In this document: positions 48,365-55,956 of the stretch, in pieces
Position numbering within the stretch: position 1 is the stretch's first letter
Layout: each line of letters begins with the position of its first letter
Position numbers and translations under genes: made by a program
Source of the DNA: Nitrospira sp. KM1
GTDB taxonomy: Bacteria; Nitrospirota; Nitrospiria; Nitrospirales; Nitrospiraceae
DNA length: 64,000 nt
Direction: 5' to 3'
NCBI RefSeq assembly: GCF_011405515.1
Contig: NZ_AP022671.1
Coordinates: 2,728,001-2,792,000 of the forward strand
Notes under the pieces: model-generated
The model's input: the letters and a program-made list of their open reading frames with translations, nothing else
What the model was told of the DNA's origin: nothing
Databases searched by the model: none

Positions 48365-48640
48365 ATGAACACACGACTGATACTGATCACGATACTGCTG
48401 CCGGTCATTTCCGGTTGTGAATCGTATACAAGACCGTTGGGAGTCACCAATACGACCGTTGCCTCTGCAAAACAGGGCGAAGACTGCCGGCTTATCGTGT
48501 TCGGACTGGGAGATATGGCTGATGTGACCGAGGCCGAAGCCATACGGTCGGGTGGAATTACGAAACTACGGAATGCGGAGTATCACGTCCACACCTTCCA
48601 AGGCGTAGGAAAGGAATGCGTGACCGCTCACGGTGAATGA
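48365..48640 (+). CDS. TRL-like family lipoprotein
   Basis: 91 residues from the ATG at 48365 (AAGGAAGG upstream; an earlier in-frame ATG has no such site). Lipoprotein signal RLILITILLPVISGC (lipobox ISGC). The mature part, SAKQGEDCRLIVFGLGDMA...AEAIRSGGITKLRNAEY, is the TRL pattern: a Cys-containing KxGxxC strand, an acidic helix and GGITKI/L. TRL proteins are small envelope proteins of unknown function. Its 3' end overlaps the convergent glycosyltransferase gene by 13 bases. Confidence 0.72.
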   Translation: MNTRLILITILLPVISGCESYTRPLGVTNTTVASAKQGEDCRLIVFGLGDMADVTEAEAIRSGGITKLRNAEYHVHTFQGVGKECVTAHGE

Positions 48641-49806
48641 ATAAAGCGCGACGGCGTTGAAGAGCAATCGATAAGCGGGCTCGGCCCTGTATCTATCTCT
48701 TGGTCTCTGCCCCGTAGTATCTCTAAAATGAAGGTTTCCAGTTTTTCCACATGTCGGTCGACAGCAAATTGTCGACTCAATTTCTCCGATGGTACTTGAG
48801 TGGCCAATAAACCGGCTTGAGATGAATTCAAGAAAGACACCCACTCTTCGGCACTGTCGAGAATCTTTAGACCGGCCCCCGATTGATATTCGATGCCGCG
48901 AAGGGCGTGAGGAGTTGCAAGAACGGGCACTCCGTGGTACAGGCTCTCGGCAAGCTTAATATTCACGCCCGCACCGGTGCGGATGGGGCACATCATAATA
49001 TCAACCCGGTTCCAGACCACTTGGAGTTCACGGGCAAAGCCGTGGGCGACGACTCGGTCGCGAGTCGGTATCTTGTCGCTCTGCCGTCCAAAGACGTGAA
49101 CTTCGATCGAACGGTGCACGTTCGGAAGGATCTCATTGAGCAGCCACATCCAGTTCTGGCGATTGGGCCACCAGGCAAAATCAGCAAGGAATCCGAGGCG
49201 AAGCCGTGCACTGGGTTGACGCGTGCGGGCTATCGGAGGCTCTGTAAACAACGGCGGAACGTACAGGCCTCGCAACCCCGGGATTTGGGTACAGCCCCAA
49301 GCCATCTCAGTCGTTGAAAGAAAAATAACTCCTCGAACACGACTGAAACCTGCAATCTCGTAACACCGCTGCTTGGCAATTTCCGCCTTAAATATCCGAT
49401 GGAGGAAGGAAGAACCCAGTTGCTGAACCAGCAACTGATGCTCAAGATTATGAGCGATGAGTACCGTCGGCATGTCCGAAGGTAAGACGTCAAGAGCCCA
49501 CAACATGTCGCTGCTATTGATCAACGCGGCATCGTAATGATGAGCATGCGCTCTTTCCAGGATTCTCTGCTCGAACTCGCCTTGACGCGCAAACAGGGCC
49601 TTTGCGGGGAGTTCTGAAAAACACGATTTGGCCAAGGACGCGAGCTGCCGCGACCGGTACCAGGGGCCGGGAGGAGGGTGAAGGGGCCCAATCAAGTCAA
49701 CCGTGTGGTTTCTTCGCAGAGCGGCTACCAGGCCGCGCGTATAGGTGCCTGCGCCGCCAGGATGGGTGGCAGGGTCAACCAATGACGCAATGAGTAGCTT
49801 TGCCAC
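48628..49806 (-). CDS. Glycosyltransferase, GT4/GT1 family (GT-B fold)
   Basis: About 392 residues from the GTG at 49806, where the protein begins VAKLLIASLVDPATHPGGAGTYTRGL, the normal GT-B opening; the frame runs on upstream, overlapping the next gene, but that part is not GT-like. C-terminal donor-site block AESLYHGVPVLATPHALRG (E-x7-E type) and LGFLADFAWWPNRQNW. Starts 5 bases after the previous gene stops, so the two are probably coupled. Substrate unknown. Confidence 0.85.
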   Translation of the reverse strand: MAKLLIASLVDPATHPGGAGTYTRGLVAALRRNHTVDLIGPLHPPPGPWYRSRQLASLAKSCFSELPAKALFARQGEFEQRILERAHAHHYDAALINSSDMLWALDVLPSDMPTVLIAHNLEHQLLVQQLGSSFLHRIFKAEIAKQRCYEIAGFSRVRGVIFLSTTEMAWGCTQIPGLRGLYVPPLFTEPPIARTRQPSARLRLGFLADFAWWPNRQNWMWLLNEILPNVHRSIEVHVFGRQSDKIPTRDRVVAHGFARELQVVWNRVDIMMCPIRTGAGVNIKLAESLYHGVPVLATPHALRGIEYQSGAGLKILDSAEEWVSFLNSSQAGLLATQVPSEKLSRQFAVDRHVEKLETFILEILRGRDQEIDTGPSPLIDCSSTPSRFIHSP

Positions 49807-49811
49807 AGCGG

Positions 49812-50795
49812 TCAGCGGTAGTTCGTTTCTTCCAGCTGTTGGTTTCTGAAAGCCATCAGCATTCCCTTGATCTCCACAGCATGGATCCAAAACGCGAGCC
49901 CCAGAGCGATGGGGAAGTCCGCCAGCCGCAGGCCGTAATATCGGCCTACCCGGAAACATGTTCCCCAGCTCTCGATCAGTCGACCTATGTAGAACAATGG
50001 AATTGAAGCCTGCCCGAGTCTGAGAAGCCAGCTGAAGCGCAATTGGGGGTCAACCTGACGAATGCGTATAGTGGCCCAGCCGATGTGACAACGGATATCC
50101 CGCTCCATGGACCATCCTTCGAATTCGTGTATCACGGTCATGGCAGGCTGAAAAATAAAGCGGCCTCCGTCCCGCTGGATGGCCGCAGATTGCAGTTGCG
50201 CGGCATACGGGCCTTCCTTCTCGGGTAGGGGAAACCGTTCCAAGGTTGTTCGGCGAATTCCGGAGTTGTTGTTCGAAATGAACCGGGTAGGCGCCACTCT
50301 CCCGGGATCAAGGAATCCTCTGGTCAAGACCGCAAGGCTTCGCTCGATGGCGGTCTTGCCTTCGTACATCGTCCGGCCGCTGACGGCAACGTGTTGGGGA
50401 TGCAAACGTAAGGTGTCCACCAGCGATTGGAGCCATCCGGAAACTGGCGTGCAATCGACATCCAGTATGGCGATGATTTCACCTTTCGCCGCCTTGGCAG
50501 CTGCATTTTTCCGCTCATAGCTTCCATCGTGAGGCACGGCAAGTACCCGCAAGTCAGGTAGTTCGGCGATCACCTCGGCAGGGAGCTTCCGAGCGCGTTC
50601 GTCTGTCTCAACGAGGAGAAACTCGACGGGTTGGTCGACTTTCTGTCGTGCGAGAGCTTGCAGACAACTTCGCAAGTCCTCAAGGCCCTCGTGGCGCGTG
50701 GTGTCATGGTCCGCGACAATCACCACACTGACTACAGGCTTGGAATTGGCGCCGATCACCGACTGTTCCGTCATTGTATTTGTAGATGTTGGCAT
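49812..50795 (-). CDS. Glycosyltransferase, GT2 family
   Basis: 327 residues from the ATG at 50795 (GGAG about 10 bases before); the frame is open to 50906. GT-A features: VVSVVIVADHD at the N-terminus, GSYERKNAAAKAAKGEIIAILD and the DxD metal motif DVD in AILDVDCTPVSGW, FISNNNSGIRRTTLERF. C-terminal membrane-associated segments (WLLRLGQASIPLFYI, ALGLAFWIHAVEIKG). Makes a glycosidic bond on the cytoplasmic face. Its start precedes the end of the upstream GT4 gene by 62 bases. Confidence 0.86.
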   Translation of the reverse strand: MPTSTNTMTEQSVIGANSKPVVSVVIVADHDTTRHEGLEDLRSCLQALARQKVDQPVEFLLVETDERARKLPAEVIAELPDLRVLAVPHDGSYERKNAAAKAAKGEIIAILDVDCTPVSGWLQSLVDTLRLHPQHVAVSGRTMYEGKTAIERSLAVLTRGFLDPGRVAPTRFISNNNSGIRRTTLERFPLPEKEGPYAAQLQSAAIQRDGGRFIFQPAMTVIHEFEGWSMERDIRCHIGWATIRIRQVDPQLRFSWLLRLGQASIPLFYIGRLIESWGTCFRVGRYYGLRLADFPIALGLAFWIHAVEIKGMLMAFRNQQLEETNYR

Positions 50796-50856
50796 CGTGA
50801 ATTCTCCGACTCTTGTTGTGTTCCCTGTGCATCCATCGACCAGGATGCGCGATGTT

Positions 50857-52014
50857 CTATTTACCCGTGCTGCAGTGTTCAACGAGACGTTGATACAGGT
50901 CGGCATGGCGCCTGACGCCCTCTTCTTTTGTGTATCGAGCGAGGACCTTTGCGCGAGCCGTTTTCAACTTGTTCAATGCTGGGGCAGGGTTGGCGATGAT
51001 GTCGAGCGCTGCATCTGCCCATCCGTCTGGATCCAATGGCGCCACCAAATTACCATACAGGCCGTTCTCAAGAATTTCTGGAAATGCACCGCTGCGGCTT
51101 CCCAGTAACGGCACGCCGGCGGCAATCGATTCCAAGACCACGTGGCCGAATGCTTCGTTGTACGAAGGTATCAATAATAGGTCTATAGTCGACATGACGT
51201 CGCAAATTTGGGTTCGATGACCGGTGAATTCGACATTCTTCGAGAGTCGCAGTGTCTTGACCTGATCCTTGAGTTCTCCCTCCAAGCTGCCGCCACCGAT
51301 AATCATGAGTCGAGCGTCAGGGACAGCATCAACGATTTTTCGCATGGCAGCGATCGCAACACAATGCCCTTTTTCATATTCCAGCCTTCCGATGACGGCA
51401 AGTACTGGACGCACGGGATTCCTAAGGGCGCGAATTTCCGGCAATTCGGTGCGGCCTGCAAGAAAACGATTGAGATCGAAAAATCCGCCAATCACTTCCG
51501 CACGATCCCATTCGCGTGGCAGCAACTCCTCTTTGAGCAGATGCTTCGCTACACAAACGTATGCGGCGGTATGTGTCGACAGCCAGGAGTGCATCACACG
51601 CATCAACGGCCTAAGAAACCATCGTGGTTTTGGGCCACCCCCAAAATTTATCGTTGCGATGACCACCGGTACCCGCGCCAGTCGTGCGGCCAAGCGGCCC
51701 CACACATTGCAGAACCCGGATTGCGTGTGAACGATGTCCGGTCGAATGCGGCGGAACGTCTTGTAAAATGCATAAATGGTCTTGATCATGCCCGCAGGAG
51801 TTCTAAGACTCGGAATGCCCAGCCCAAGTTCATGTATCGTGCAACCGGTTGCCAACACCGCAGCGCCGAGTGAAGAGGTGGTCGGCATCAGGGTGACAAT
51901 TTCGAACTTGAAGCGCTCGCGATCCAGTTTTTCGGCAAGACCAAGCGGTGCATGCTCTCCTCCGGCATCGCGATAAAAACCAAGATAGACATACAGCACA
52001 TGTATCTTTTTCAT
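50857..52014 (-). CDS. Glycosyltransferase, GT4 family
   Basis: 385 residues. GT-B domains with FYRDAGGEHAPLGLAEKL (acceptor side) and, in the donor domain, LAVIGRLEYEKGHCVAIAAM, LMIIGGGSLEGELKD and EAFGHVVLESIAAGVPLLGS (E-x7-E). Most like GT4 retaining transferases for polysaccharides. It is the first of three closely spaced glycosyltransferase genes read on the minus strand. Confidence 0.92.
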   Translation of the reverse strand: MKKIHVLYVYLGFYRDAGGEHAPLGLAEKLDRERFKFEIVTLMPTTSSLGAAVLATGCTIHELGLGIPSLRTPAGMIKTIYAFYKTFRRIRPDIVHTQSGFCNVWGRLAARLARVPVVIATINFGGGPKPRWFLRPLMRVMHSWLSTHTAAYVCVAKHLLKEELLPREWDRAEVIGGFFDLNRFLAGRTELPEIRALRNPVRPVLAVIGRLEYEKGHCVAIAAMRKIVDAVPDARLMIIGGGSLEGELKDQVKTLRLSKNVEFTGHRTQICDVMSTIDLLLIPSYNEAFGHVVLESIAAGVPLLGSRSGAFPEILENGLYGNLVAPLDPDGWADAALDIIANPAPALNKLKTARAKVLARYTKEEGVRRHADLYQRLVEHCSTGK

Positions 52015-53113: not shown

Positions 53114-54742
53114 CTATACGATAAGCGACTGGCCGGGAAGGTCGCTATGAAGGACGCCTGCTGCCGCCAAGACTGTAGCAGTTACATCAACCAAATGAGG
53201 CTGTCTCCCCTTGATCGGTCGGTACGTTCCCGATCGCGGCACGATAATCGCGCGTGAACCGTGGACGTGGTTTCCCGACCGCCCTGACCCCACCCCTTCG
53301 CGCAACACGGTGCCGTAGACCGGTGAAGTCACGCCCCGCAGATGTATAGCTTGTTCATTGCTCCACCGAATAATGAGGTCGGGAAGGTGATCGAGCGCTC
53401 GACCGGGAGGTAAATGTTCCCCAGGACGTTCAATGCCTGCAATGCACGCGTTCCCGTCGATATCGCAATACGTCCGGAGCCCTGCGGAAATCTCGTTGCA
53501 AAGCTCGTTTACCTCGGACTTGGCAACAATGCCATTCCGCTCTCGGCCTCGGACGTTGAGCCGAACCAACCCGGGTCCGTCGGAGGGTAATGAAAAAGCC
53601 CGAAGGGTTGGCCAGTCTTTCCCGATCGTCCCGAGTCGAGCGGTGAGCTCGAGCGAAAGGGAGTCCGGCAGCATGTCCGCTATGGCCGTTCGAAGCGAAG
53701 TGGGAACCATCGCGCGCAGTTTCGTGAGAGCGTCACTTCCAGATGACTTCTGGACCGGCGCTCCGGGGTTCAAAATTCGTTTCAACATCTCGGGAAGAAG
53801 ATCGGCCCGACAGGTTTCCTGACCCATGCCCTTGGGCCAGAAGACGAAGATATTTGCGTCGGCAGGCAGTGCCTTCACAATCCGACCGAGTGCGGCATCC
53901 GCTGCTTGGTAGACGTCGACCAACGAATTCTTCAACAAAGCGGACCCAGCTGAGGATTGACCTATGAGGTTGACGGCCGCTGGATTCAAAAACTGATGGC
54001 CCGCCAGGTGTACGGCAACCATATGCACCCAGAGCACGTCTACAGTCTTCTCGGCCAGCAGTCGTTCAACTGCGCCGGCTAGGCGACCGGGTGCCTGCAT
54101 GAGAATATCCCGGAGATATAACAGGTGATGCTGCGATGGCTGTCCAAAGGTCTCCTCACCTCTTGGTGTCTGGCCGAGGTGTTCTGAGAGTTCCTTGCCC
54201 ACGTTTGAGGGACGCGACCACTTGGCTAAGTGGACCCGTGACTGAAATTGGCATCCGCTGACCACAATGCTGTTGGTCAGATTCTGTAGAGGATGTTCGG
54301 GTGGATCGATGGCAAGGACTCGCTTGCCCGCTCGGTCCAATCGTTGGAACAACGTATCAGCCGGCATCAGGTCATAGGAAAGCCGGAGTCGTTGTTCGGA
54401 AGGAGACCAGGTAAACAAGGAGTAAATGCCGTGTTCCGATGGATGACGACCCGTGTAAAGAGTCGAATAGACGGAACCATCGAGAAACGGGGGGGCGAGC
54501 TGAACGTTCTGGCCTGCTCGCTGAAGAGCTGCAAGATGCGGCATTCGGTCATCCCCGATCAACTGCTCGATCAGGGGCGCCGATGGAGCCTCTAATGAGA
54601 TGGCCGCAATCACTTTGTGTACACCATGACAGATTGAATGGATGCGCGTGTGGCCCTTGATCCTGCACACTCCGTGGGGTGAGCTGGATTCCCCGGTTAA
54701 GACTGCCCAAAAACTATGCCAGCTCGGAATCAAAAAAATCAA
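53114..54742 (-). CDS. Alkaline-phosphatase-superfamily (type I phosphodiesterase-like) protein, metal site apparently lost
   Basis: 542 residues from 54742, but the family-like part starts near residue 44 (GTG at 54613). The order of blocks is that of the predicted AP-superfamily/type I phosphodiesterases: VIAAISLEAPSAPLIEQL, YTGRHPSEHGIY, LSYDLMPADTLFQRL, VDVLWVHMVAVHLAGHQF, IFVFWPKGMG, a VRGRERNGIV block, PDLIIRW and VDVTATVLAAAG. At the metal-binding and nucleophile positions the usual residues are changed (see finding). It sits in the glycan locus, in the same direction as the four glycosyltransferases. Inferred role: glycan or lipid-phosphate modification, or a structural partner. Confidence 0.75.
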   Translation of the reverse strand: MIFLIPSWHSFWAVLTGESSSPHGVCRIKGHTRIHSICHGVHKVIAAISLEAPSAPLIEQLIGDDRMPHLAALQRAGQNVQLAPPFLDGSVYSTLYTGRHPSEHGIYSLFTWSPSEQRLRLSYDLMPADTLFQRLDRAGKRVLAIDPPEHPLQNLTNSIVVSGCQFQSRVHLAKWSRPSNVGKELSEHLGQTPRGEETFGQPSQHHLLYLRDILMQAPGRLAGAVERLLAEKTVDVLWVHMVAVHLAGHQFLNPAAVNLIGQSSAGSALLKNSLVDVYQAADAALGRIVKALPADANIFVFWPKGMGQETCRADLLPEMLKRILNPGAPVQKSSGSDALTKLRAMVPTSLRTAIADMLPDSLSLELTARLGTIGKDWPTLRAFSLPSDGPGLVRLNVRGRERNGIVAKSEVNELCNEISAGLRTYCDIDGNACIAGIERPGEHLPPGRALDHLPDLIIRWSNEQAIHLRGVTSPVYGTVLREGVGSGRSGNHVHGSRAIIVPRSGTYRPIKGRQPHLVDVTATVLAAAGVLHSDLPGQSLIV

Positions 54743-54936
54743 TCCGTTTGTCTTGTTGCTGGAATCATTCCACTGAGCACATGGATTAGCCGGTATATGG
54801 GATGCTATTTTCCTGAATTGCCTAAGCCAGGGGCCGCCCCCTATACTCTTTCACATGGTCCCTGACAGAGTGAGCGATCCGACAAGGTTGTTCATCGTTG
54901 GAAGGCAGAGTTGTCTTGTCACCGCACAAACGGTCG

Positions 54937-55956
54937 ATGATTGACCGTACCGAATCTCCTCAAGCCGACACCATTTCGGTTGTTGTCCCGGTTCATAATG
55001 GAGGGCCGGACTTCCGACGGTGCCTGGCGAGCTTGCAGGCCGCTTCGCCACCTCCGTTTGAAATTATCGTGGTTGCGGACGGAGACACCGACGGGTCGGG
55101 GGCCTACGCCGAGCGCCTCGGCCTGCAGGTGTTGCGATTCCCAACGGCGGGAGGGCCCGCAAGAGCGCGAAATCTTGGTGCCGGCAGTGCGCGAGGAGCG
55201 ATCCTCTTTTTTGTGGATGCCGACGTCACCATCAAGGGCGATACGATCGGCCGGGTGGAGGAGGCTTTCCGGCGAGAGCCGGGTGTCGCCGCAGTAATGG
55301 GTTCTTATGATGATCAGCCGGGCGATCCGAACGTGCTTTCCCAGTACAGGAATCTCTTGCACCATTGGGTTCATCAGGAGGGACGTGAGGAGGCTTCAAC
55401 GTTCTGGGGGGCCTGCGGAGCCATACGTCGGACCGTGTTCGAGAAAGTAGGCGGGTTCGACGAAACATATCGAAGACCTTCCATCGAAGATATTGAACTT
55501 GGGTGTCGGCTCAAAAACGCGGGTTATCGGATACGCCTGGTGAAAAGCTTGCAGGTCACCCACTGGAAGAAGTGGACTCTTTCGTCAATCGTCTGGACCG
55601 ACGTGTTTTGCCGCGCATTGCCCTGGACCGCACTCATCCTTTCACAGCGTGGGATCCCCAATGATTTAAACTTGAAGATGTCCGGGCGCATCAGCACGTT
55701 ATTGGTGGGGATAATGGTGGTGAGTCTGGGCATCGTCTGGTGGTGGCCCTGGGCAATCGTCATCACAGCCCTGTCCATAGTGGGGCTGCTTGCGTTGAAC
55801 CATCAACTCTATGGGTTTTTTATCAAGAAACGCGGATTGAGTTTTTCCCTGCGGGCTATCCCCTTGCACTGGGTCTACTTTCTCTACAGCGGGCTGGCCT
55901 TTGGAGCCGGAGCGCTCCGATTTCTGATGATATCTCGCACGAGGCCGGCCCGCTGA
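54937..55956 (+). CDS. Glycosyltransferase, GT2 family, membrane-associated
   Basis: 339 residues from the ATG at 54937; a TTG at 54898 is in frame. GT-A core: ISVVVPVHNGGPDFRRCL, IIVVADGDTDG, AGGPARARNLGAG, metal-binding DAD in FFVDADVTIKG, and SIEDIELGCRL (catalytic base region ED). Three to four C-terminal membrane segments (~250-345). First gene of the plus-strand half of the locus; the divergent gap to the phosphatase-like gene is ~195 bases and should hold promoters for both directions. Confidence 0.9.
   Translation: MIDRTESPQADTISVVVPVHNGGPDFRRCLASLQAASPPPFEIIVVADGDTDGSGAYAERLGLQVLRFPTAGGPARARNLGAGSARGAILFFVDADVTIKGDTIGRVEEAFRREPGVAAVMGSYDDQPGDPNVLSQYRNLLHHWVHQEGREEASTFWGACGAIRRTVFEKVGGFDETYRRPSIEDIELGCRLKNAGYRIRLVKSLQVTHWKKWTLSSIVWTDVFCRALPWTALILSQRGIPNDLNLKMSGRISTLLVGIMVVSLGIVWWWPWAIVITALSIVGLLALNHQLYGFFIKKRGLSFSLRAIPLHWVYFLYSGLAFGAGALRFLMISRTRPAR

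Follow-up and report, generated by a model that had tools for sequence, protein, structure and literature searches.

Substitution of the classical metal-site and nucleophile residues in an H-type alkaline phosphatase-fold protein encoded beside glycosyltransferases in Nitrospira sp. KM1

Analysis of a 64,000-nucleotide stretch of Nitrospira sp. KM1 DNA (hereafter, the window) revealed a gene for a protein with the AlkP/NPP fold in which the classical nucleophile and the nucleophile-side metal ligands have been replaced, and which belongs to a clade, designated H-type, spanning about ten phyla. The explanation that we favor, to which we would give roughly an even chance, is that H-type proteins constitute a distinct and widespread clade in which the nucleophile side has been lost and the other site rebuilt as a His3 site, and that they function as non-classical, cytosolic metalloenzymes partnered with glycosyltransferases. 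If true, the clade would be either a set of partner proteins for glycosyltransferases or an example of new chemistry on the AlkP fold.

Reading frame, fold and family

The open reading frame at 53114-54742 on the reverse strand is intact and, counted from the most upstream TTG, encodes 542 amino acids. Because detectable homology starts ~40 residues past this TTG, and because an orthologue (L003) has an ATG at the codon matching the GTG at 54613, the true protein is probably that encoded by 53114-54613, of ~499 amino acids (Table 1). Residues are numbered here along window:53114-54622 (-), a frame of 502 amino acids, such that each number is 40 lower than in the original prediction. No paralogue of the protein was found in the same genome, and a search of plasmid sequences for copies of the gene gave no match. 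From the absence of an obvious N-terminal signal sequence, taken by itself, the protein would be expected to be cytosolic.

Both fold and profile place the protein in the AlkP superfamily. Specifically, PF01663 is its sole Pfam match and exceeds the curated cut-off (36.7 bits vs. 23), and an AF2 model built from 87 aligned relatives has a mean pLDDT of 90.1 and a pTM of 0.91. Foldseek matches this model best to phosphonoacetate hydrolase and NPPs (E about 1e-12); structural alignment to NPPs covers 330-350 residues at Z about 22-23, and that to phosphoglycerate mutases about 240 residues at Z about 23-24. No NCBIfam equivalog covers the protein, its relatives giving weak matches at best, and no Pfam or NCBIfam model tells the H-type clade apart. 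The protein does not qualify as a sulfatase, a family marked by a formylglycine Cys/Ser and an Asp-rich single-metal site, having neither Cys nor Ser at position 48 and having lost the Asp of the SDHG block, and a single, weak Sulfatase Pfam match was obtained among 87 H-type members.

Table 1. Coordinates, within the window, of the gene, its key codons and the neighboring glycosyltransferase genes
Feature	Position	Strand	Description
H-type AlkP/NPP-fold protein gene	53114..54613	-	probable GTG start at 54613; longest ORF reaches 54742
E11	54590..54592	-	NPP3 Asp168 position; GLDG replaced by SLEA
D48	54479..54481	-	Thr/Ser nucleophile position (NPP3 Thr206); FLDGSVY
D106	54305..54307	-	invariant in H-type clade (96/96); 2/18 canonical relatives
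H205	54008..54010	-	NPP3 Asp326 position; Asp replaced by His (clade 100/100, canonical 0/19)
H209	53996..53998	-	NPP3 His330 position, kept
P263-K264	53831..53836	-	Asp-His of SDHG (NPP3 Asp373-His374) position; lost
R354	53561..53563	-	invariant in H-type clade (95/95); 4/19 canonical relatives
R448	53279..53281	-	invariant in H-type clade (92/92); 1/18 canonical relatives
H452	53267..53269	-	NPP3 His483 position; kept (91/92 in clade)
GT4-type glycosyltransferase	50857..52014	-	part of conserved block
GT2 glycosyltransferase	49812..50906	-	part of conserved block
Second GT4-like glycosyltransferase	48628..49959	-	end of conserved block
GT2 glycosyltransferase, divergent neighbor	54898..55956	+	remotely resembles the GT2 domain of the Actinomycetota fusions

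Substitution of the classical active-site residues

The active site of NPP3 is composed of D168, T206, D326, H330, D373, H374, and H483 (PMC6052110), seven ligands whose conservation across NPPs and alkaline phosphatases has been described as strict (PMC6052110). In the window protein these positions are occupied by E11, D48, H205, H209, P263, K264, and H452, respectively. The correspondence was derived from a profile-profile alignment against canonical relatives (498 columns, E 2.2e-90), from aligning the canonical profile with XacNPP over the nucleophile and SDHG blocks, and from the secondary structure of the AF2 model, in which E11 follows the first strand, D48 begins a helix, H205 and H209 lie on the helix that follows a strand, P263-K264 sit between two strands, and H452 falls within a strand. 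Where a catalytic NPP would present a Thr/Ser nucleophile, the window protein has D48; E11, P263, and K264 replace the nucleophile-side Asp, Asp, and His of GLDG and SDHG; and H205, H209, and H452 stand in place of the Asp, His, and His of the second site.

The original prediction had been aligned by eye, and the three lines of comparison agree with it throughout: the Glu proposed to replace the first metal Asp is E11 (SLEAP), the Asp proposed at the Thr nucleophile position is D48, the Asp-His pair said to read VAVHLAGH is VAVH205LAGH209, the SDHG block said to read WPKG is W262-P263-K264-G, and the last His, said to be kept, is H452 (SGNHVHG), each at its canonical position. Its description of the ligands as apparently lost holds for the nucleophile and for the Asp and His of SDHG, which are gone, but not for the D326/H330/H483 site, which, through replacement of the middle Asp by His, has become H/H/H rather than simply disappearing. 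By homology, H205, H209, and H452 would adopt a His3 geometry.

Conservation and distribution of the H-type clade

Orthologues from other genera of the family and from a second family share the pattern, with Pro or Ala at position 263 and identity at the remaining positions. The original prediction had suggested looking for the same substitutions in orthologues, and since they are fixed at about 70-74% identity, the ligand pattern is, as judged from these sequences, not a product of chance. Among genes of the window clade, dN/dS is 0.13-0.19 (about 0.15), with a large dS of about 0.4-1.35, and selection on them is purifying. The substitution of every classical nucleophile-side position is what a recent pseudogene, or a sequencing or alignment artefact, might also produce, but the reading frame is intact, the fold is predicted with high confidence, orthologues carry the same residues, and dN/dS is low; this explanation, refuted by the comparison with orthologues, is regarded as exceedingly improbable.

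A total of 100 H-type sequences from about ten phyla, about 90 of them distant relatives, came from profile searches within Nitrospirota and from scanning the contigs of GTDB species, the hosts beyond Nitrospirota including Rokubacteria, Acidobacteriota, Gemmatimonadota, Verrucomicrobiota, Planctomycetota, Actinomycetota, Pseudomonadota, Myxococcota, and Binatota. Nitrospirota rows were drawn by profile and many of the others by a pattern containing the middle His, such that the occurrence of this His in every one of the 100 rows partly reflects selection by the contig-scan pattern. The other changes in the clade were not selected for: the SDHG Asp is absent from 98/98 rows; the nucleophile position is varied (Val 27, Glu 22, Ser 14, Asp 11, Thr 7, Pro 6, and others), being Ser or Thr in only 21 of 96; and D106, R354, and R448 are invariant. 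At every position covered, canonical relatives in the same phylum display the classical D, S/T, D, H, D, H, H. A single branch, with a support of 100, divides the H-type rows from the canonical ones in a maximum-likelihood tree; the canonical rows come from Nitrospirota alone, and the tree does not fix the root or the exact sister group.

The window protein possesses all of the features that define the H-type, namely His in place of the middle Asp, a second His four residues later, the last His, D106, R354, and R448. Most members of the clade additionally retain the Asp in GLDA, the motif E-x-H-x-x-x-H, and the His of S-x-H-G; the Glu of E-x-H-x-x-x-H, found in 82/100 members, is common rather than defining, and the window protein has A203 at this position. 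In the window clade, which comprises nine full-length rows, and in its sister, both the Glu two residues before H205 and the SDHG His are missing, and the nucleophile position 48 is acidic (Asp or Glu). Change has gone furthest in the window subclade (E11, D48, A203, P263, K264), and the common core left in the window clade consists of H205, H209, H452, D106, D242, R354, R360, and R448. The pairing of the loss of E203 with an acidic residue 48 (16/18) was considered as independent evidence and rejected, all cases belonging to one clade. Across the H-type clade no Ser, Thr, or Cys column above 90% was found, and a relocated covalent nucleophile is for this reason unlikely.

Genomic context and glycosyltransferase fusion

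The window gene lies in a glycosyltransferase-rich region, and the PDE-GT4-GT2-GT4 order seen there (Table 1) is kept in all six of the other window-clade loci examined, with extra genes between in some; the block is shared by other genera and by a second family. Between the H-type gene and the first GT4-type gene of the window, window:52097-52954 (-) encodes a protein resembling glycosyltransferases, in which LDTDT and FNTG motifs occur; it matches no Pfam family at 1e-3, and the orthologous loci contain no close counterpart of full length. With genes called by longest ORF, 46 of 72 H-type loci (17/33 in the multi-phylum set) have a GT2/GT4-like gene no more than three genes away. Such a context is not special to the H-type, an idea rejected when canonical relatives, used as a control, were found to have a glycosyltransferase nearby in 8/13 loci; because these relatives also lie near glycosyltransferases, the link to glycans is probably older than the change of the metal site.

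The strongest functional clue is provided by five Actinomycetota members, which run in-frame into a C-terminal family-2 glycosyltransferase domain akin to chondroitin synthase and SpsA-type GT2 domains. A link between H-type proteins and glycosyltransferases is seen, then, both in gene neighborhoods and in fusions, and the glycan context originally proposed is supported by the conserved operon and by the fusions in relatives.

Several additional features of these loci were recorded. Three H-type proteins are encoded in direct tandem at L092:6656-11487 (genome G349), and tandem or near pairs of H-type genes occur in L093, L086, and L120. A radical SAM-SPASM protein (Pfam-checked in L104), a possible functional partner of the H-type protein, recurs in seven loci of more distant Nitrospirota (L102, L103, L104, L106, and L076-L078), its gene being upstream of the H-type gene in the mapped loci. 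Six loci on Acidobacteriota, Gemmatimonadota, and Binatota contigs (L107, L110, L115, L140, L145, and L151) contain a GMC-type oxidoreductase (Pfam-checked in L110), located near the H-type gene where mapped. Within the window itself, the open reading frame at window:57954-58262 follows an FAD-dependent oxidoreductase gene (window:56012-57850) and is 37% identical over 94 residues (E 9e-17) to the C-terminal segment of that oxidoreductase, which looks hydrophobic and membrane-spanning; the two genes recur jointly in five other loci.

Proposed function and its alternatives

That the residues of the covalent mechanism are gone and a new set has become fixed is seen directly in the sequences. According to the proposed mechanism, H-type proteins would have lost the nucleophile-side metal site together with the Ser/Thr nucleophile, while the other site would have been rebuilt as H205, H209, and H452 alongside the new invariant D106, R354, and R448. 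The three histidines may bind one divalent metal, on the side that in NPP3 terms is the phosphate-binding Zn1, and R354 and R448 may hold a sugar intermediate by its anionic group, either phosphate or carboxylate. In surface-glycan assembly, the protein would be a cytosolic partner of a GT2 or GT4 glycosyltransferase, acting as a metalloenzyme with a non-classical mechanism that forms no covalent phospho-Ser/Thr, and would not be a phosphatase. Two observations weigh against this proposal: the window's own subclade is more strongly altered than any other and has no Glu in the E-x-H-x-x-x-H motif, and the glycosyltransferase context is the same for H-type and canonical proteins.

The loss of the nucleophile and of one entire metal site, as well as the fusion or proximity to glycosyltransferases, would also suit a pseudoenzyme, that is, an AlkP-like domain without catalysis serving as a substrate-binding or a scaffolding/regulatory subunit of GT2 (or GT4), in which the histidines hold a structural metal or line a ligand pocket. 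However, H205, H209, R354, R360, R448, D242, and D106 are invariant over about ten phyla, in a manner resembling a working site, whereas scaffolds usually let former active-site positions drift. A plain degenerate pseudoenzyme appears less likely because three histidines at ligand positions and three new active-site-like residues are invariant across very large divergence. The non-classical metalloenzyme is ranked slightly ahead of a binding or regulatory pseudoenzyme, which we consider doubtful while keeping it as a serious contender. Of the two outcomes that the original prediction had offered, a pseudoenzyme or an altered site used in polysaccharide assembly, the second is the better supported, the altered site being evident as a coordinated, clade-wide set of new invariant residues.

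A further possibility is that phosphoester cleavage persists, with a metal-bound water at the His3 site replacing Ser/Thr as the nucleophile. The kept site corresponds to the phosphate-binding Zn1 of NPP3, the presumed binding place of the hydrolytic water (PMC6052110), and the new invariant arginines could stand in for the charge of the second metal; nevertheless, the Asp-to-His change and the loss of the second site run counter to known two-metal chemistry, and we judge this alternative improbable.

No description of the H-type clade was found in the open-access literature on the superfamily, COG3379, pseudoenzymes, or glycosyltransferase fusion. Under the favored metalloenzyme reading it is possible, and is suggested here tentatively, that the clade represents a previously unrecognised enzyme family that would combine the AlkP fold, a single His3 site opposite to that of sulfatases, a non-classical reaction on a glycan intermediate, and complex formation with, or fusion to, GT2.

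Comparison with known systems

The window protein resembles the NPP/type I phosphodiesterase family (PF01663; XacNPP, ENPP1-7, phosphonoacetate hydrolase) in whole-chain fold, PF01663 match, and block order, and has in common with it two of the three Zn1 ligands (H209 and H452); it differs in that the nucleophile, both SDHG ligands, and the Zn1 Asp are replaced, and in the new invariant D106, R354, and R448. EboF, encoded in the ebo operon, is likewise an unassigned PF01663 lineage, with eukaryotic members that have no apparent targeting sequence (PMC5133447); its gene context differs from that of the H-type. Outside the clade, the nearest relatives are the canonical AlkP-like proteins of Nitrospirota glycan loci, with an alignment of 498 columns; these too are found near glycosyltransferases but retain the full D, S/T, D, H, D, H, H set. 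Lastly, sulfatases are single-metal members of the superfamily, and the H-type may resemble them in having one site rather than two; the site kept in sulfatases, however, is that on the Asp/nucleophile side (PMC11677397), opposite to the one that H-type proteins would retain.
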